Origin: Comamonadaceae bacterium
GTDB taxonomy: Bacteria > Pseudomonadota > Gammaproteobacteria > Burkholderiales > Burkholderiaceae_C
Assembly (NCBI GenBank): GCA_947449895.1
Contig: CANFSO010000003.1
Location: 1-49,675 of the forward strand
Length of the DNA: 49,675 nucleotides
Reading direction: 5' to 3'
The notes beneath the pieces were generated by a model. That model saw only the letters and a program-made list of their open reading frames with translations, was not told where the DNA came from and did not search any database. Below are positions 41,053 through 49,675 of this stretch, piece after piece. A program made the translations under genes and the position numbers. Every line of letters starts with the position of its first letter. Position 1 is the stretch's first letter.

Positions 41053-42069
41053 ATGCTTGACGATCGTGCGAAGTTATTGCTCAAAGCGCTGGTAGAGCGC
41101 TACATTGCCGATGGCCAGCCGGTAGGCTCACGCACGCTGTCCAAGGCCTCGGGGGTGGAGTTGTCGCCCGCCACCATCCGCAACGTCATGAGTGATCTGG
41201 AGGAGCAGGGGCTGATCATCAGTCCGCACACCTCTGCTGGACGGGTGCCCACGGCCCGGGGTTACCGGCTGTTTGTCGACACCATGCTGACGCTGCAACC
41301 TAGCCATCTTGGTTCCGGCTTGATGGGGGGTCATCAGTTGGCACCCGACCAGCCGCAAAAAGTTCTGACCAACGCGGCACACATGCTTTCTAACTTGTCG
41401 CAGTTCGTCGGCGTGGTGATGGCACCCAAGCGAACCTCGGTGTTTCGCCACATTGAATTTCTTCGTCTCTCAGACAGGCGCGTACTGGTGATCATCGTGT
41501 CACCTGACGGCGATGTTCAAAACCGCGTGATCTTCACGGAAACTGACTTCACGCAGAGCCAGTTGATTGAAGCCGCCAATTTCTTGAATTCGCACTACGC
41601 CGGCATGGCTATGGAAGAAGTACGAGAGCGGCTTAAAAACGAGGTTGAAGCTCTGCGTGGCGAAATTGCCAGCCTGATGCAGGCCGCCGTCAAAGTCAGC
41701 GCAGAAGCCATCGAGGCTAGCGAAGAGGTGGTGGTGTCGGGTGAGCGCAATCTGCTGGCCGTCAGCGACTTTTCAGGGGACATGAGCAGCCTGCGCAAAC
41801 TGTTTGACTTGTTTGAGCAAAAAGCCCAGCTCATGCGCTTGCTGGACGTCTCCAGTCGGGCCGAAGGTGTTCGAATTTACATTGGTGGCGAAAGCCATGT
41901 CATCCCGTACCAGGAACTGTCTGTGGTGACCGCGCCTTATGAAGTCGATGGCCAAGTCGTCGGCACCCTCGGTGTGATTGGTCCTATGCGCATGCCATAC
42001 GAAAAAATGATTCAAATCGTCGACATCACCTCAAAATTGGTGAGCACGGCTTTGAGCCACAGCAAATAG
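41053..42069 (+). CDS. hrcA: Heat-inducible transcriptional repressor HrcA
   Basis: A 338-residue repressor that binds CIRCE operators and is folded by GroEL. The winged-helix region ([42 protein letters not shown]) is N-terminal, followed by [20 protein letters not shown]. The dimerisation/inserted domain ends with [15 protein letters not shown] and [10 protein letters not shown]. No CIRCE element was found in front of this gene, but one lies before rpoH at 16592. A TAGAAT hexamer at 41040-41045 is so close to the ATG that the mRNA could be leaderless. Confidence 0.97.
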
Positions 42070-42153
42070 AATTCGATTTTCGAGGGATCTTGCATCGGCT
42101 TTAAATGCCTCCACCTTGCAATGGTTCGGCTTTCACACTTTAAAGGTAATTCC

Positions 42154-43095
42154 ATGATCGGTGCTTTTACTCAACGCTTAGGCAAGTGGCTTGCCATTGC
42201 CGCCATGCTGGGCTTTGGTCTGGCTATGGCCCAGTCCGAACCCACCTTGAATCAGGTCTACGAGGCCGCTCAATCCGGAAAAATGGACCAAGCTCAAACC
42301 ATGATCCAGCAAGTCCTGGTGGCCCATCCAAACAGTGCCAAGGCTCACTTTGTGCAGGCTGAACTGTTTGCCAGGCAAGGATTGAACGGCCGTGCTGGCG
42401 ACATGCTCGCTACCGCTGAAAAACTGGCTCCCGGCCTGCCATTCGCCAAGCCTGAAGCGGTTCACAGCTTGCGCGACAAAATTTCTGCCCGGCCTGTTCA
42501 GCAAGCTTCGGGAAATAGCGGCGGTAATGGAAATGGCAATTCAGCGTCCAGCCACTTTAGCAACTCAGTCATTCCGGCTGCGTCCGCATCCTCTTTTTCC
42601 TGGGGAATGCCTTTGTTGTTGGCCGGCGGCGTGATGGTTCTCGGCTATTTCATGTTTCGTCGCAAAGACGCGCCCGTCGAGTTCCATGCGCAATCCCCTT
42701 ATGCCAACCAGGCTCCCATGGGCAACCCGGCAATGGCGGCCAACGGTTTGAGCGGTCCACAAACCTTCGGCATGGGTGGTGCGCCTGCTGCCGCACCAGT
42801 TTATGGTCAGCCGCAGGCCAGCGGACTGGGGAGCACGCTTGCCGGTGGTTTGGCTACTGGTTTGGCCGTGGGTGCGGGCATGATGGCAGCCCAAGCCATT
42901 GGTAAAAGTCTGATGGGCAACAACGAAGGCAGTCATGACACCTCGTCACGGCTGGCCAATAACAATAGCAACAACTACGAGCCGATTGCGGACAACAGCA
43001 GCAGCATGGGCGGCCAAAATTTTGGCGTCACGGACAACGGTTCTTGGGATGACGGCGGCAGTGCAGACGTGGGCGGTGGCGACTGGGATAGCTAA
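42154..43095 (+). CDS. Tetratricopeptide-like membrane protein with Gly/Asn/Asp-rich tail
   Basis: A 313-residue protein from the ATG at 42154 (AAAGG upstream). A signal peptide (KWLAIAAMLGFGLAMAQ) is followed by a TPR-like helical region (TLNQVYEAAQSGKMDQAQTM...AHPNSAKAHFVQAELFARQG). A Ser/Gly/Asn-rich linker, one transmembrane helix (GMPLLLAGGVMVLGYFMF) and a glycine-rich C-terminus follow. It ends in a W/D/G-rich stretch (GSWDDGGSADVGGGDWDS), reminiscent of the tails of YgcG/DUF2076-type membrane proteins. I do not know its function. It follows hrcA but has its own ribosome-binding site. Confidence 0.75.
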   Translation: MIGAFTQRLGKWLAIAAMLGFGLAMAQSEPTLNQVYEAAQSGKMDQAQTMIQQVLVAHPNSAKAHFVQAELFARQGLNGRAGDMLATAEKLAPGLPFAKPEAVHSLRDKISARPVQQASGNSGGNGNGNSASSHFSNSVIPAASASSFSWGMPLLLAGGVMVLGYFMFRRKDAPVEFHAQSPYANQAPMGNPAMAANGLSGPQTFGMGGAPAAAPVYGQPQASGLGSTLAGGLATGLAVGAGMMAAQAIGKSLMGNNEGSHDTSSRLANNNSNNYEPIADNSSSMGGQNFGVTDNGSWDDGGSADVGGGDWDS

Positions 43096-43130: not shown

Positions 43131-43835
43131 ATGGACATTTTCAAACGTCGATCACTGTTGGCACTATTGGCGCTACCCACCGGCTGCGCGATTCAATACC
43201 TTCCGCCACTGGCCGCCTCCAACATCGTCAGTGGTGGGCTAGCAGGGGCTGTCCGAGCGCCGGCTGTAGGTCAAAGCTGGACTTACAGCCAATTTAACTT
43301 TTACAACAGCCAACTGATTGACACGGTCAAAGAAGAAGTGGTCGACGTAGACGGCGGCATACGTATCAGCCGTCGTTCCAAAAACAACACGGATTTGGGT
43401 GACGAATTTCAGCCCGTGTGGGGCCAAGTCAAACAAGATTCCTATTGGGATTTCCTCCAAACCTACGAAACAGCCATGCCTTTATGGCTGGACAATTTCA
43501 CTGTGGGGACAAGTCAATCCACCGACACACACTATCAATCAGGAACGTCGTCCTTTCGCTATTGGATCAGTGCAAAAACGACAGTGACAGGCTGGGAAAA
43601 GGTGGCGATTCCCAGCGGAACCTTTGAAACGGTGCGCATTGAAAGGTTCATCCGACAAAACCATCGCGACATCAGCAGACTCGATACAGTGAGGCGCGAA
43701 ACTCTTTGGTTCGCCCCCGAAATCGGGCGCTGGGTAGCGAGGGAAACAAACGGTGAGTTCAGAATTACCGGCAGACGAGGTGGCTGGATTGGACGTGAAG
43801 ACCACTTCCGTTGGCAGCTGGAGAGTTGGACTTAA
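43131..43835 (+). CDS. Putative lipoprotein of unknown function (gene X)
   Basis: A 234-residue exported protein. The N-terminus MDIFKRRSLLALLALPTGC has a lipobox with Cys at residue 19 and an RRSLL motif that could be Tat-like. The mature part is predicted to be beta-rich, with VGQSWTYSQFNFYNSQLIDTVKEEV and PSGTFETVRIERFIR, resembling DUF3108-like secreted domains, and ends HFRWQLESWT. A decayed copy of its 3' end lies at 49511-49592, just before tRNA-Met. Base composition is somewhat richer in A/T than in its neighbours. Confidence 0.75.
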   Translation: MDIFKRRSLLALLALPTGCAIQYLPPLAASNIVSGGLAGAVRAPAVGQSWTYSQFNFYNSQLIDTVKEEVVDVDGGIRISRRSKNNTDLGDEFQPVWGQVKQDSYWDFLQTYETAMPLWLDNFTVGTSQSTDTHYQSGTSSFRYWISAKTTVTGWEKVAIPSGTFETVRIERFIRQNHRDISRLDTVRRETLWFAPEIGRWVARETNGEFRITGRRGGWIGREDHFRWQLESWT

Positions 43836-43864
43836 GGTGGTGCGCCACATCAAGAGGATTTTGA

Positions 43865-44845
43865 ATGAAACATAGAATTTCAGTCATGGTGGCGTTCACA
43901 CTGGTAGCACTGGTGTGCGCGACGGGTAGCGCACTGTCCCAAGATTTTCCGCCCGCCAAAGGGGTCACACTTTACGTGGGCTTTCCGCCCGGTGGCGCCA
44001 ACGACATTGCCGCACGCATCATCGGCAGAAAGCTGGCCGAAAACATAGGTCAAAGTGTGGTCGTCGACAACAAGCCCGGCGCGGGTGGCAATATTGTTGC
44101 CAATACGGTGGCAACAGGGCGGGCCGATGGTTCGGTTTTGTTGTTGAGCTCCATCGGCCCGCTGTCGATCGCCTCTCATCTCATGAAAATACCCTATGAC
44201 CCGGTCAAGGACCTTGCACCGATCGTGATGGGTGCAAGTTTTCCAAACGTGTTGTTGGTCTCCCCTGAGTCGGGCCTGAAAACGCTCAAGGACTTCGTCG
44301 ATCTGGCTAAAAAAAATCCAGGGAAGCTAACGTTTGCGTCGACCGGTTCTGGATCCGCCTCGCATTTGCAGGGTGAGCTCTTCAATCAGCGTGCAGGCAT
44401 AGACGTCGTGCACGTTCCGTACAAGGGCGGTGGTCTTGCGACAGTGGATGTCATGGGAAACCGCGTGACGGTTTACTACGCGGCCTTGCCTTCTGCCGCC
44501 TCGCACATTCGCTCAGGCAAGTTGATCCCGTTGGCGCTGACGGGTGCCAAGCGCGTTGAACTCTTCCCCGACATCCCGACCATTGCGGAATCGGGTTATC
44601 TGGGTTTTGATTCGGATAACTGGTATGCGTTTGTTGCCTCGGCAAAAACTTCTCCTGCCATGTTGGCCCGATGGAATAAAGAGCTCGTGAAGGTGATCAA
44701 TGATCCCGAAACCTCCAAGCTGCTGAAGTTGCAAGGGCTGACGCTTGCGCCTGGCACGCGAGAGGATTTGGCCAACTACATCGCGAAAGAGTCTAAGACT
44801 TGGGCCAAAATCATCAAAGAGCGCAGCATCACGATTGAGCAGTGA
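43865..44845 (+). CDS. Bug family tripartite tricarboxylate transporter substrate-binding protein
   Basis: A 326-residue receptor with a signal peptide (VMVAFTLVALVCATGSALS). Bug motifs are GVTLYVGFPPGGANDIAAR near the mature start, VDNKPGAGGNIVANTVA near residue 75, STGSGSASHLQGELFNQ and VHVPYKGGGLATVDVMG near residue 180. An AAGAGGA ribosome-binding site lies before the ATG. It is an orphan receptor with no TctAB genes nearby. It sits between gene X and a decayed tRNA fragment, and so may have been inserted into an older gene X-tRNA junction. Confidence 0.94.
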   Translation: MKHRISVMVAFTLVALVCATGSALSQDFPPAKGVTLYVGFPPGGANDIAARIIGRKLAENIGQSVVVDNKPGAGGNIVANTVATGRADGSVLLLSSIGPLSIASHLMKIPYDPVKDLAPIVMGASFPNVLLVSPESGLKTLKDFVDLAKKNPGKLTFASTGSGSASHLQGELFNQRAGIDVVHVPYKGGGLATVDVMGNRVTVYYAALPSAASHIRSGKLIPLALTGAKRVELFPDIPTIAESGYLGFDSDNWYAFVASAKTSPAMLARWNKELVKVINDPETSKLLKLQGLTLAPGTREDLANYIAKESKTWAKIIKERSITIEQ

Positions 44846-44859
44846 CCCGCCATGTCGGT

Positions 44860-44910
44860 GGCCCTTACAAACGCCGCTGGTTTGGGCGTTAGCTCAGTTG
44901 CTTGGAGCAG
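44860..44910 (+). pseudogene. Decayed 5' half of a tRNA-Met gene with upstream sequence
   Basis: The 27 bases at 44884-44910 match the 5' part of the tRNA-Met gene at 49635 (GGGCGTTAGCTCAGTTG, then GAGCAG), with one base missing from the acceptor stem and two changes. The match extends upstream through GGTTT and CTTACAA to about 44862, the same order and spacing as upstream of the intact gene. The anticodon half is absent, so no tRNA can be made. Confidence 0.8.
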
Positions 44911-45038
44911 GTTACCAAAAAGGCGTACGTTTTTCACCTCGCTACGGATGTTGGTGTTTTGGTTAAAACGCTATTACTTGATCATGCCCTTGCCAGTTTT
45001 ACCTGCACAATCAGCGCATAAAAATTATGGAGCACAAG

Positions 45039-46055
45039 GTGAAATCATTCAAATTCGTACCTTTACTGGCCCTGTTGGCGCTTAGCGCTCAAGCGCAAAA
45101 CAAAGAGGTCAACATCATTTGCTCTGCTCAGGCGGCGTGGTGCAGCATGATCGCGGTGACGTTTGAAAAAAGCCAAGGCATCAAGGTCAATATGACGGCC
45201 AAAGGTTCGGGTGAAGCGATCGCCCAATTGGCAGCCGAGAAGGCCAACCCCAAGACCGACATTTGGTTTGGCGGTACTGGCGACCCGCACCTGCAAGCAG
45301 CCGAGCAAAACCTCAGCCTCGAATACAAATCGCCCAGCTTGCCCAAGTTGCAAGAATGGGCACAAAAACAGGCCGAACAGTCGGGCTACAAGACGGTGGG
45401 TATCTATTCAGGCCCGCTGGGTTTTGGCTACAACACTGAGCTGCTGGCCAAGAAGAAGTTGCCTATTCCTAGGACTTGGAGCGATCTTCTCAAGCCTGAA
45501 TACAAAGGTGAAATCCAGTCAGCCAACCCTGCGTCCAGTGGCACGGCCTACACCATGATCGCCACGCTGGTGCAACTCATGGGCGAAGACAAAGCCTTTG
45601 ATTACCTCAAGGGCTTGCACAAAAACATCGGCACCTACACCCGCTCTGGCACAGGTCCGATCAAGGCAGTGGCCCGCGGTGAGACCGCTGTGTCCATCAG
45701 CTTCGTACACGACGCGCCGGGCGAAAAAGCGCAGGGCTTTCCGATCGAGACCATCACACCGTCTGACGGCACGGGCGCAGAGATTGGCTCCATGTCCATC
45801 GTGCGCGGAAGCCGCAACTTTGACGCAGCAAAAAAGTTTTACGAGTGGGCTTTGAGTCCGTCGGCGCAAGCACTGGGCGCGGCAACTTTGCAGTTCCAGT
45901 TGCCCTCGAACAAAGAAACCAAGATCGATCCGCGCGTGCCAGATTTTCGCAAGATCAAGCTCATCAATTACGACTACGCCAAATACGGCCAGACGGCGGA
46001 GCGCAAGCGCCTGATCCAGCGCTGGGAAAAGGAAGTCAACAGCCTTCCGCATTGA
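45039..46055 (+). CDS. AfuA/FbpA-like ABC transporter substrate-binding protein
   Basis: A 338-residue periplasmic binding protein from a GTG at 45039, with GGAG 7 bases upstream and a product starting MKSFKFVPLLALLALSAQAQ. An ATG at 45027 would contain the ribosome-binding site. The mature part has VNIICSAQAAWCSMIAVTFEKSQGIKV, ADIWFGGTGDPH-like TDIWFGGTGDP, GPLGFGYNTELLAKK and FVHDAPGEKAQGFP, typical of the iron/AfuA/2-aminoethylphosphonate group. AfuA of Actinobacillus binds hexose phosphates. The ligand here, iron or an organophosphate, cannot be decided by eye. It is the first gene of a three-gene importer operon. Confidence 0.88.
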   Translation: MKSFKFVPLLALLALSAQAQNKEVNIICSAQAAWCSMIAVTFEKSQGIKVNMTAKGSGEAIAQLAAEKANPKTDIWFGGTGDPHLQAAEQNLSLEYKSPSLPKLQEWAQKQAEQSGYKTVGIYSGPLGFGYNTELLAKKKLPIPRTWSDLLKPEYKGEIQSANPASSGTAYTMIATLVQLMGEDKAFDYLKGLHKNIGTYTRSGTGPIKAVARGETAVSISFVHDAPGEKAQGFPIETITPSDGTGAEIGSMSIVRGSRNFDAAKKFYEWALSPSAQALGAATLQFQLPSNKETKIDPRVPDFRKIKLINYDYAKYGQTAERKRLIQRWEKEVNSLPH

Positions 46056-46058
46056 GCC

Positions 46059-48299
46059 ATGTCTGAAATGAATCCGGCCTTGCGTTTACAGCGCGCGCTG
46101 CAGGGTTGGAGCCTTTTTGGCTTGCTCGGCTTTGCCTTGCTACCTTGGTATTTTCTGCAAGACCAGTCGCTGCTACAGGCGCTGCCCGGTATCTTTGGTG
46201 GGCCAGAAACGGCCAGCGGCTGGGTTCAGGCGTTGCAGCATGGCCGCCCGTGGTTGTGGACCGGTTTCGCCGGTTTGCTACTGTGCGCTTTGGCGCTGAC
46301 GGCCAGCTGGGAGCCGCGTGTACAAGGATGGGGTTTGTTGCTAGGCAGTGGGCTGGGCATTCTGGGGCTGCTTGCCAGCGGCCTTGCCATTGGTGCCACC
46401 GGTTGGGCTTTTGCTTCGCTCGAATCAGCTTGGGGCGCTTTGCCCACCGGGCAATACGGTATGGGCTGGGGCGCCGCGTTGGCTTTGCTCAGCCTGTTTG
46501 TGCTGCTGGGCGCCGCGCTGGCGCGGCTGGGCGCATTTCGCGGCGACGTGTTTGTGGCTGGTGCAGTGGTGGTGTGCACCGCTCTGTTGGCCATGTTTGT
46601 GGTCTACCCGGTGCTGCGTTCCTTGATCGCGGCTTGGGTGGACGATGTGGGCGTTTACGCTTGGCCCAACTTGTTGGAACGAGTGGCCACGGAACGGGTC
46701 TGGGGTCTTGGCTGCGTGCACAATGCGGGGCGCTGCGGTGTGGCTTGGAACACGCTGTGGCTGGCCTTGATCACCGCCACCGGCACCACTGTTCTGGGCA
46801 CGATGTTGGCCCTGTGGGCGGTTCGCGGCGGCACTCGCTTGGCCAAACCGCTGAATATTTTGGCCCTGCTGCCCGTGATCACGCCGCCCTTTGTGGTCGG
46901 CTTGGGTTTGATTCTGTTGTTCGGCCGGGCTGGCTTGTTCAACCAAGCCTTGGAATGGGCCTGGGGGGTGCAGCCCACGCGCTGGTTTTATGGCGTGTTG
47001 GGGATTTGGCTGGCGCAGATGTTTGCCTTCACGCCCATTGCCTTCATGATCATGCGCGGCGTGGTGCAGGGCGGGAGCCCGTCGATGGAGGAGGCTGCGC
47101 AAACCCTGCGCGCCAGTCGCATGCAAACCTTCTGGACGGTGACGCTGCCGTTGTTAAAGCCCGGACTGGCCAATGCTTTCTTGGTCGGCTTCATTGAAAG
47201 CATGGCCGACTTTGGCAATCCCATCATTGTGGGCGGTCAGTTTGCAGTGCTGTCGACCGAAATCTTTTTTGCCATTGTGGGCGCCGCGCTGGACCCGGGC
47301 ATGGCCGCCGCCTTGGCGCTGGTGCTGACGAGTTTTGCTCTGGCCGTGTTTTTTGTGCAACGGTGGGTGCTGGCGGGCAGCAGCTTCACTACGGTGTCAG
47401 GCAAGGGCGATGCTGGCATGGCCATGCCGCTGCCGCCCTTGGTGCTGCGGGTGTGCCGTGGCGTTGCTGGGCCTTGGTTACTGTTCACCGTGGTGGTCTA
47501 TGTGTTTGCGTTTGCGGGCGGCTTTGTGCAGACCTGGGGGCGCGACTTCACCTTTACCTTGCAGCACTTCAAAACCGCCTTCGATGTGCAGGTAGGTGAT
47601 TTTGGTTGGGTGTTTGCGGGCACGGCCTGGAAGTCACTGTTCACCACTTTGACTTTGTCGGCCATGGCCGCGCCGGTGTGTGCGGGCTTGGGGCTGCTGA
47701 TGGCTTGGCTGCTGGCGCGCACCGAGTTCAGGGGCAAGGCGGTGTTTGAGTTTTCGGCCTTACTCACGTTTGCCATACCCGGCACGGTGCTGGGGGTGAG
47801 TTACATCCTAGCTTTCAATGTGCCGCCAGTGGAACTGACCGGCACCGGGTTGGTGATTGTCTTGTGCTTTGTGTTTCGCAACTTGCCGGTGGGCGTGCGT
47901 GCGGGCACAGCGGCGTTCAAGCAGTTAGACCGCTCTTTGGACGAAGCCTCGCAAATGCTGCGCGCCAGCACTTTGACCACGCTGCGTCGGGTGGTGTTGC
48001 CGCTGCTCAAACCCGCGCTGTTCACCGCACTGGTCTACAGTTTTGTGCGCTCCATGACCACAGTGTCGGCGGTGATTTTTTTGGTCACGGCGCAGTACGA
48101 ACTGGCCACCACCTACATCATTGGCCGTGTCGGCAACGGCGACTATGGCGTGGCGCTGGCGTATTGCACGGTGCTGATGGTGCTGATGTCGGCCATCACT
48201 TGGGGCATTCAAAAGCTGGTAGGTGAGCGGCAGTTGGGGCGCCGCGCCTCCGTGGCTGTGCCTAAGACACCCGCTACCACTGCAATTTCACCTGTTTGA
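46059..48299 (+). CDS. AfuB-like fused ABC transporter permease
   Basis: A 746-residue inner-membrane permease with about 14 helices and two fused binding-protein-dependent transport modules. EAA loops are visible as [27 protein letters not shown] in the first half and [27 protein letters not shown] in the second, the sites that contact the ATPase. The first 200 residues hold extra hydrophobic helices before module one. The fused two-module layout is that of FbpB/AfuB permeases. It begins three bases after the receptor stop. Confidence 0.93.
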
Positions 48300-48316
48300 A
48301 ACTAGGACAACAAGCG

Positions 48317-49375
48317 ATGGGTATTCAATTTAAACAGGTGAGCAAACGCTACAGCGGCGCAGACTCGCCGTTGGTGGTCAAGGGCATTGATTTTGTGGTG
48401 GCCAAGGGCAGTTTGACCGCCATCCTCGGGCCTTCGGGTTGTGGCAAGACCACCACCTTGCGCATGATCGCGGGACTGGAATCGCCGAGTGGCGGGCAGA
48501 TCGTGATCGACGGCAAAGACGTGACGCACCTAGGGCCTTCAGAGCGCAATGTGAGCATGGTGTTTCAAAGCTATGCCTTGTTCCCGCACATGAATGTGAT
48601 CGAGAACGTGCGCTATGGTTTGGACGTGAGTGGCGTGGCCAAAGCCGAAGCGCAAGAGCGCGCCTTGCACAGCTTGGCCCAGGTGGGTCTCAAGGGGTAC
48701 GAAACACGTTTGCCCAGCGAGTTGTCAGGCGGTCAACAGCAGCGGGTGGCGTTGGCGCGGGCCTTGGTGCTGGAGCCATCGGTGTTGTTGTTTGACGAGC
48801 CATTGTCGAACCTTGATGCGCGCTTGCGCCGTTCCATGCGTGATGAAATTCGCCAACTGCAGAAGCGCTTGGGCTTGACTGTGGCCTATGTGACGCACGA
48901 CCAAAGCGAAGCCCTAGCGGTGAGCGACCAGATCATCGTGATGGAGGCCGGCGACATTGCGCAGGCCGGCACGCCGCAAGATTTGTACGAGCGCCCCCGC
49001 TCGGCCTTTGTGGCCGGCTTCATGGGCGAGGCCGTGCTGTTTGATGGCCAGTCGCTGGCCGACGGCGTGGTGCAACTGGGTCCCTTGCGTTTGTTGCCGC
49101 GCTACGCTACGGCACTTGGTGCGGTACGCGCTGCAGTGCGGCCTGAGGCGTGGTTGGTCGGGCGTGAGTTGTCAGTGGGTGAGCATCCCCCTGCCACCTT
49201 GGTGGGGCAGCTCAAGCAGTGGGCGTATTTGGGCAGTTTCATTGAGCTGACTTTTGACACCGAATTGGGGCCTGTGTTTGTCGTCTCGCCCGAGGTGGAG
49301 CGCCATTGGCAGGTGGGCCAGTGCTTGGCACTGAGTTTGCCGGGGCGGGGTGTATCGGTGGTGGCGGTTGGATGA
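48317..49375 (+). CDS. ABC transporter ATP-binding protein, AfuC/FbpC-like
   Basis: A 352-residue ATPase. The Walker A motif is [16 protein letters not shown] near residue 38, the Q-loop is [13 protein letters not shown], the signature is [15 protein letters not shown], Walker B is [12 protein letters not shown], and the H-loop is [10 protein letters not shown]. The C-terminal 120 residues form a TOBE-type domain, as in FbpC/PotA. The start is ATG at 48317, with AGGA upstream; the frame is open from a TTG at 48296. The stop (TGA at 49373-49375) overlaps an ATG of a possible HAD relic. Confidence 0.95.
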
Positions 49376-49518
49376 TTGTGATGACAGAAATGAAGGAGGG
49401 GAACCTGAGTAGGGCGAGGCCGCAAGTTGTGATTTTTGATTTGAACGGTGCGGTGTGTCGGCACAGCTTCAATATTGTCGGCAGGTTTAAACAAGGTACA
49501 AGGCACGCTAGACGGTGA
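49372..49518 (+). pseudogene. Possible relic of a HAD-phosphatase gene start
   Basis: A 48-codon frame opens at ATG 49372, overlapping the ATPase stop, with AAGGAGGGG further in. Its middle reads RPQVVIFDLNGAVCRHS, close to HAD motif I (FDxDGxx with Asp nucleophile), but Asn replaces the second Asp and the frame stops at 49518 with nothing after it. It may be the 5' end of a phosphatase gene once co-transcribed with the importer, cut by the junction with the gene X remnant. The match is short. Confidence 0.4.
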
Positions 49519-49592
49519 TTTCTGCGGACAGAGAAGATGGCTGAGTCGTTCGTGAAGAGCACTTTCGTTGGCCGTTAGAAAGTTGGACTTAA
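49511..49592 (+). pseudogene. Decayed copy of the 3' end of gene X
   Basis: This stretch aligns with the last ~85 bases of gene X (43750-43835): GACGGTGATTTC with AACGGTGAGTTC, CGTGAAGAGCACTTTCGTTGG with the CGTGAAGACCACTTCCGTTGG region, and AGTTGGACTTAA with the same 12 bases ending the gene. It has a 6-base gap and an in-frame TAG before the last codons, so it is not coding. It is followed 42 bases later by tRNA-Met. Confidence 0.82.
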
Positions 49593-49634
49593 AGCATCTC
49601 GCATGCAACTGCCGCTTACAATCCTCTTTGGTTT

Positions 49635-49675
49635 GGGGCGTTAGCTCAGTTGGTTAGAGCAGAGGACTCATAATC
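49635..49675 (+). tRNA. tRNA-Met (anticodon CAT), 3' part beyond window end
   Basis: The first 41 bases of a tRNA: acceptor strand GGGGCGT, TA at positions 8-9, D arm GCTCAGTTGGTTAGAGC, anticodon stem GAGGA and loop CTCATAA with anticodon CAT, then the start of the pairing strand. The AATCC continuation, which is typical for elongator tRNA-Met, is cut. tRNA-Ile2 (CAT modified) remains possible. TACAAT at 49617-49622 could be the promoter -10. Confidence 0.88.

Follow-up and report, generated by a model that had tools for sequence, protein, structure and literature searches.

The closest described counterpart of the locus analysed here is the tRNA-dependent lysogeny of actinobacteriophages (Guerrero-Bustamante and Hatfull 2024, PMC10865867). 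As described in the main text of that paper, a tyrosine integrase acts at an attB site within a tRNA gene, the host tRNA is not rebuilt, and the integrated phage carries a tRNA of the same kind. The attachment cores of these phages measure about 10 bp, with cores of 9 and 10 bp at tRNA-Ile2-CAT for the Gordonia phages Mollymur and OneUp. The paper mentions a possible Lactobacillus case, Lj965, and states that the prevalence of tRNA-replacing integration beyond actinophages needs study. The locus examined here belongs to a Comamonadaceae bacterium (genome G000). The window, the whole stretch of DNA that was analysed, is its complete contig C3 of 49675 bases, in which an importer operon is flanked by two incomplete tRNA(CAU) 5' halves. 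In related genomes, the same tRNA is cut by integrative elements that bring a tRNA of their own.

Two further systems are relevant. Group I introns at position 37/38 of bacterial tRNA genes are known, including in beta-proteobacteria and in the Azoarcus pre-tRNA-Ile (PMC4033280, which also relays the idea that integration is impeded when a tRNA gene is split). The Islander collection (PMC4383910) contains islands with displaced tRNA 5' fragments; like the window, these have a 5' piece of a tRNA gene, then foreign genes, then a tRNA that points the same way, the window's tRNA being seen to nucleotide (nt) 41. They differ in having an integrase gene between fragment and tRNA, where none was seen in the window, and in that the window additionally holds X', a decayed copy of the end of a neighbouring gene.

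Integrative elements at tRNA(CAU) in related genomes

A tRNA 5'-half pattern with at most two mismatches was used to scan 399 genomes of the family (290 with any match) and 87 genomes of the genus (75 with any match). The relatives bear titles of Polaromonas or of Comamonadaceae metagenome-assembled genomes. Two or three 5' halves were present in 10 of the 399 family genomes and in one genus genome, G458. At these element loci (L181, L215-L220 and L233-L236, from G458, G382, G268, G123, G260, G184, G323, G189, G120, G169 and G269), the tRNA is cut at CTCATAATC. The match of the left copy ends exactly after nt 41 in 9 of the 11 genomes; the exceptions are G382, which matches 4 nt beyond this point, and G323, which is mismatched at nt 40. 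A second, full tRNA copy begins 146-444 bp after the first. ARAGORN calls the tRNA copies of relatives Met(CAU). A comparison with annotated E. coli tRNAs to assign the isotype (elongator Met versus Ile2) was uninformative, the best among the matches listed being tRNA-Lys at 78%.

The right junction, consisting of CTCATAATC followed by host nt 42-77, was located in G260 (element of about 10.1 kb) and G323 (about 10.3 kb). The core is found at both ends in G260; in G323 the left core has one mismatch. G189 carries two elements in tandem, with an element-CTCATAATC-element junction, and in the other 8 of the 11 genomes no right end was found within the DNA stretches fetched. At the three right junctions the element brings the 9-bp core only; neither a tRNA 5' half nor host flank comes with it. 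G458 has the site in both states, empty in contig C88 and filled in contig C116; the two contigs have 79 nt in common and diverge exactly behind nt 41. The elements of these relatives cut tRNA(CAU) at CTCATAATC, leave the promoter and nt 1-41 on the left, and carry a full replacement tRNA.

The integrase of the G260 element is a tyrosine integrase (PF00589). Five of the 11 element genomes were found to have this integrase or a relative of it, full or in part: G260 itself, G184 and G189 (by alignment), and G382 and G458 (as partial open reading frames). The integrase-like stretch tested in G189 had no Pfam match. A further integrase-like gene of G458, on contig C431 (L243, 450-1640, minus strand), contains stop codons and has 37% identity with the G260 integrase. 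In G123, a filamentous-phage-type G2P replication gene (PF05144; L217, 5544-6641, minus strand) lies beside the replacement tRNA, which bears an intron. Set against the integrase-bearing islands, this gene indicates that the arrangement is common to at least two kinds of element.

Searches with these elements gave partial matches at most. The G260 integrase had zero matches among phage records, the tRNA region of its element matched 3 plasmid records covering 24-35% of the query, and the start of the G123 element matched 97 phage records in part, none over 80% or more of the query, with the 10 listed covering 7-21%. Three IMG/VR contigs (L192-L194) contain hrcA-like DNA, an uninterrupted tRNA(CAU) and then different DNA; by eye they resemble prophages at the 3' end of that tRNA.

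Compared with tRNA-dependent lysogeny, the host here is the window's bacterial family and at least two element kinds are involved. Dependence on the tRNA was tested for the actinophages (PMC10865867). The relatives' elements add cases beyond actinophages: both junctions are seen in two of them, G458 has the site empty and filled within a single assembly, and G189 holds a tandem array.

Group I introns in the replacement tRNAs

All 12 element-borne tRNA copies, two of them in G189, match the group I intron family RF00028 with E values from 4e-17 to 2.1e-7; 8 score above the gathering score and 4 below it. The intron is 199-264 nt long and is located at position 37/38, inside the attachment core, and an uninterrupted core is absent from every one of the 12 copies. 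After in-silico splicing, each becomes a tRNA(CAU) recognised by ARAGORN. Introns of 203 and 207 nt at the same position were also found in G470 (L004, 9747 onwards) and G264 (L205, 1498 onwards), both with a single tRNA 5' half in the scans.

We propose that, with its core split by the intron, the DNA of the replacement would no longer be an integrase target, and the spliced RNA would be a normal tRNA. The position is that of the known bacterial tRNA introns; the difference is that these introns sit on integrated elements beside a cut host tRNA. An intron in 12 of 12 replacement tRNAs, inside the core, likewise sets these elements apart from the actinophages, and in the main text of PMC10865867 the word 'intron' occurs once, in a reference title. 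Among the open-licence literature matches listed (titles and starts of abstracts), none described an intron within the replacement tRNA of an integrative element. No paper in these listings joined tRNA-replacing integration with tRNA introns. The principle is known from actinophages, and the intron-split replacement tRNA looks new.

The broader proposal is tentative, and we place it slightly below an even chance. The family would host at least two kinds of element that break tRNA(CAU) at a 9-bp core and supply a replacement split by a self-splicing group I intron, the intron would act as a guard of the attachment site, and the window would be a scarred, still occupied hotspot beside an imported operon.

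The hrcA-tRNA(CAU) interval of the window

The features of the interval are as follows.

41053..42069, + strand: hrcA, the left anchor (open reading frame)
42121..43095, + strand: gene 'tpr', between hrcA and X in the window's clade (weak TPR/DUF2076 matches, below cut-off)
43131..43835, + strand: gene X, intact, 234 amino acids (open reading frame)
43865..44845, + strand: Bug gene, a TctC-type solute receptor (PF03401); the same junction is filled in relative G469
44859..44910, + strand: tRNA relic (tRNA'), promoter region plus tRNA(CAU) nt 2-28 (44884-44910), by alignment; similarity ends at nt 28
44911..45026, no strand: left edge of the inserted DNA (no similarity to 9 element left ends compared, no match among the fetched loci)
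45027..46055, + strand: importer solute-binding protein A (PhnS2-like, below cut-off)
46059..48299, + strand: importer fused permease B, 746 amino acids (PhnU2-like, below cut-off)
48320..49375, + strand: importer ATPase C (open reading frame, NCBIfam/Pfam search)
49384..49500, + strand: possible cut-off start of a HAD-type gene (in-frame PQVVIFDLNGAV motif)
49512..49592, + strand: X' relic, the 3' end of gene X (alignment)
49593..49634, + strand: X-to-tRNA spacer without Bug, with a TACAAT -10-like box, as in relatives
49635..49675, + strand: tRNA(CAU) nt 1-41, truncated by the contig end
49667..49675, + strand: CTCATAATC, tRNA nt 33-41, the core where relatives' elements cut

A preliminary description, made from the letters of the window, had given this order (X, Bug, tRNA fragment, operon, X fragment, tRNA) with an intact gene X and two decayed copies, and all of this holds. 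Both relics were compared with their longer counterparts by local alignment, with significance taken from 500 dinucleotide shuffles, and both pairs scored above every shuffle. Gapped alignment of X' (49512-49592) gave a score of 60 against a shuffle maximum of 29 (0/500 as good); without gaps, 49529-49592 is 78% identical with an E value of 1.4e-7 in a search of the window's own genome. The tRNA relic together with its upstream TACAAA, a -10-like sequence, scored 55 against a maximum of 26 (0/500 as good), and the tRNA portion alone 44, where 200 shuffled tRNA strings reached at most 26. The longest exact runs are 12 nt between X and X' and 17 nt between the two tRNA copies, and local alignment gave no trace of the 3' half of the tRNA relic. 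With the same query, 17 sufficiently long hrcA-tRNA intervals elsewhere in the genus scored 10-20, below the shuffle maximum of 26, so that the tRNA relic is private to the window among those loci. The TACAAA box of the relic lies upstream of the importer operon, and the old tRNA promoter might still drive it.

The preliminary description had also read an intact tRNA-Met from 49635. This needs correction, as only nt 1-41 are present before the contig ends, and ARAGORN called no CAU tRNA in the window. The last nine bases of the window are CTCATAATC, and the contig stops exactly at the end of the core. The empty and filled contigs of G458, which fork after nt 41, provide one cause of contig ends at this position.

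A second contig of the same genome, C74, is relevant here. From 11981 downwards it corresponds to the downstream host flank, with 81-88% identity to G469, G470 and G471 over 1.8-4.1 kb, and a tRNA-Arg lies on this flank. Its end carries a fragment of 117 amino acids that is oriented as in the elements and aligns with the G260 integrase at 40% identity over about 110 amino acids. Matches to the G260 integrase at E<=1e-8 occur in only 2 of the 87 genus genomes, G458 and the window's own. About 490 bp of C74 (L242, 11982-12469), between this fragment and the host flank, show no similarity to the relatives' flanks that were compared. The earlier statement that no integrase remains is correct for the DNA between the relics, but a fragment of an integrase relative is present at the end of C74, the contig with the downstream flank. 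Because the contig stops at the core and C74 ends in an integrase-related fragment, the tRNA half on the right is likely to be the junction of an element.

Comparison with relatives establishes the older state of the interval. A scan of 45 fetched loci covering part of the genus (3 genomes counted twice) gave an hrcA-to-tRNA(CAU) distance of 23-45 nt in 27 loci; the distance is 1.76-2.77 kb in 7 loci of the window's clade and 0.18-1.16 kb in 7 others, and in 4 of the 45 no tRNA was found after hrcA. The clade comprises ten genomes including the window's, and the hrcA genes of the other nine are 88-92% identical to that of the window. In this clade, tpr and X lie between hrcA and the tRNA. The protein encoded by X has zero Pfam or NCBIfam matches at E 0.001. 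Of seven clade relatives with X and the tRNA on one contig, six (G450, G464, G466, G470, G418 and G468) have X directly before the tRNA with a gap of 35-42 nt. In the seventh, G469, a Bug gene 85% identical to the window's lies between them. An intronless readable tRNA was found in 5 of the 10 clade genomes (G450, G464, G466, G418 and G469), and G470 has the intron. The remaining contigs break nearby: one contig of G468 ends at nt 41 and another starts at nt 33, contig C119 of G471 begins with seven non-tRNA bases followed by CTCATAATC and the tRNA 3' half, and the G463 contig ends inside X.

The X-tRNA junction is therefore the ancestral one of the clade. Since G469 carries X-Bug-tRNA and has no close match to operon gene A, Bug is a separate insertion event, as had been suggested. 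A search of the nine further genomes of the clade, whose assemblies are 70-99% complete, used gene A as the only operon gene and gave no close match, the best being at E 4.4e-24 in G470. Identity to relatives along nadK-hrcA-tpr-X was also compared; it is patchy for G471 (83-99% per 150 bases), with no single breakpoint.

The importer operon consists of three unbroken open reading frames and resembles an operon of G189, which belongs to another genus of the family (g88), with 81% DNA similarity over 45039-49372. Protein A is 89.5% and protein B 87.9% identical in amino acids to the G189 counterparts; for A, 137 of 182 nucleotide differences fall at third codon positions, as do most of those for B. 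The best NCBIfam matches, all below cut-off, are PhnS2 for A and PhnU2 for B, both 2-aminoethylphosphonate types, and ferric-importer ATPase and PhnT2 for C (best 25 of 189 matches). None of the matches listed passed its curated family cut-off, and the label given previously, AfuABC-like and hence a ferric-importer type, is loose. In G189 and G264, a HAD-hydrolase-like open reading frame, so named from the appearance of its sequence, follows C. Possibly only a start of such a gene is left in the window before X'.

Origin of the two relics

The explanation preferred here, which we consider evenly poised between right and wrong, is that the hrcA-tRNA(CAU) interval is an insertion hotspot with element attachment in the anticodon loop, holding a left attachment site (attL) on the right, a scar on the left and an X' from a second haplotype. 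In this scheme the anticodon loop would be the attachment site of tRNA-replacing integrative elements. The right-hand tRNA would be the attL of such an element, whole or reduced to a remnant, and 44859-44910 would be the scar of an earlier event of this kind in a haplotype with the order X-Bug-tRNA. The importer operon, by its presumed route of entry, would have been left beside the older scar. X' and tRNA nt 1-41 would derive from another X-tRNA haplotype, one without Bug, which recombination attached on the right; the joint would fall near 49500, after the cut HAD-type gene and before X'. The two haplotypes are suggested by the window itself: X' precedes the tRNA with a Bug-less spacer and tRNA' comes after Bug, so that two junction types of one genome look like two haplotypes and not like a simple tandem duplicate. 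For the left tRNA half taken by itself, an origin as an older element scar is plausible, at about an even chance.

Several observations weigh against this explanation. The left relic ends at nt 28, not nt 41, and 44906-45030 aligns with 9 element left ends no better than shuffled sequence does and has no match among the fetched loci. Between 44911 and 49634, where the open reading frames are A, B and C only, no integrase or intron was seen. The right junctions of the relatives, having no 5' half or host flank, imply that X' is not the product of the element family alone. Identity to the tails of X (61-78% to 8 of them) gave no placement of X', which is too decayed. No integrase was identified in 6 of the 11 element genomes. 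The C74 fragment has zero Pfam integrase matches and is tied to the tRNA by synteny alone, across an unassembled gap, in an assembly that is 78.5% complete. Finally, the contig of the comparison genome G421 ends at nt 47, and contig ends in tRNA(CAU) are thus not always at nt 41.

The preliminary description had read the locus as a duplication of the X-tRNA junction when the operon entered. In its fullest form, a tandem duplication at operon entry, for example through a single-crossover circle, was followed by decay of the inner copies, and Bug entered the left copy alone. This would yield exactly X, tRNA', operon, X' and tRNA, it requires no integrase, and both relics are real. The ancestral X-tRNA junction in that reading is upheld, but the simple duplicate with decayed inner copies is not, given that the X' spacer lacks Bug and tRNA' follows it. 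Bug at the same junction in G469 would further demand two entries or a transfer, tRNA' stops at nt 28 with no trace of its 3' half, and this reading explains neither why the contig stops at the attachment core nor the C74 integrase fragment. We regard this duplication as unlikely, though it is the best placed of the alternatives.

A mirror-image tRNA island would account for both relics in one step: an attachment arm carrying the X 3' end, the promoter and the tRNA 5' half would have moved the 5' half of the host tRNA leftwards and rebuilt the tRNA on the right. The displaced piece is indeed a tRNA 5' half with its promoter and not the 3' fragment of the classical island, and the earlier remark that this is not the usual tRNA-island pattern was right; yet a small share of known islands does have a displaced 5' fragment (159 of 3919 in Islander, PMC4383910), and tRNA(CAU) is cut by elements in relatives. 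Against this, the three right junctions in G260, G323 and the G189 tandem bring the 9-bp core only, no integrase is seen between the relics, and the left relic ends at nt 28. Such an island appears improbable.

An assembly chimera of strains within the metagenome is very improbable: 4 of the 10 clade genomes (G000, G468, G471 and G463) do have a contig end within X or within the tRNA, but the longest exact runs between X and X' and between the tRNA copies, at 12 and 17 nt, fall below the usual assembly word size, and the operon differs by 19% in DNA from its nearest relative found.

If the preferred explanation is correct, the odd pair of relics in the window could be read as the history of a single site that was entered repeatedly. 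If the proposal for the replacement tRNAs is true, bacterial tRNA introns would have a job in hiding a gene from integrases while leaving its product unchanged.

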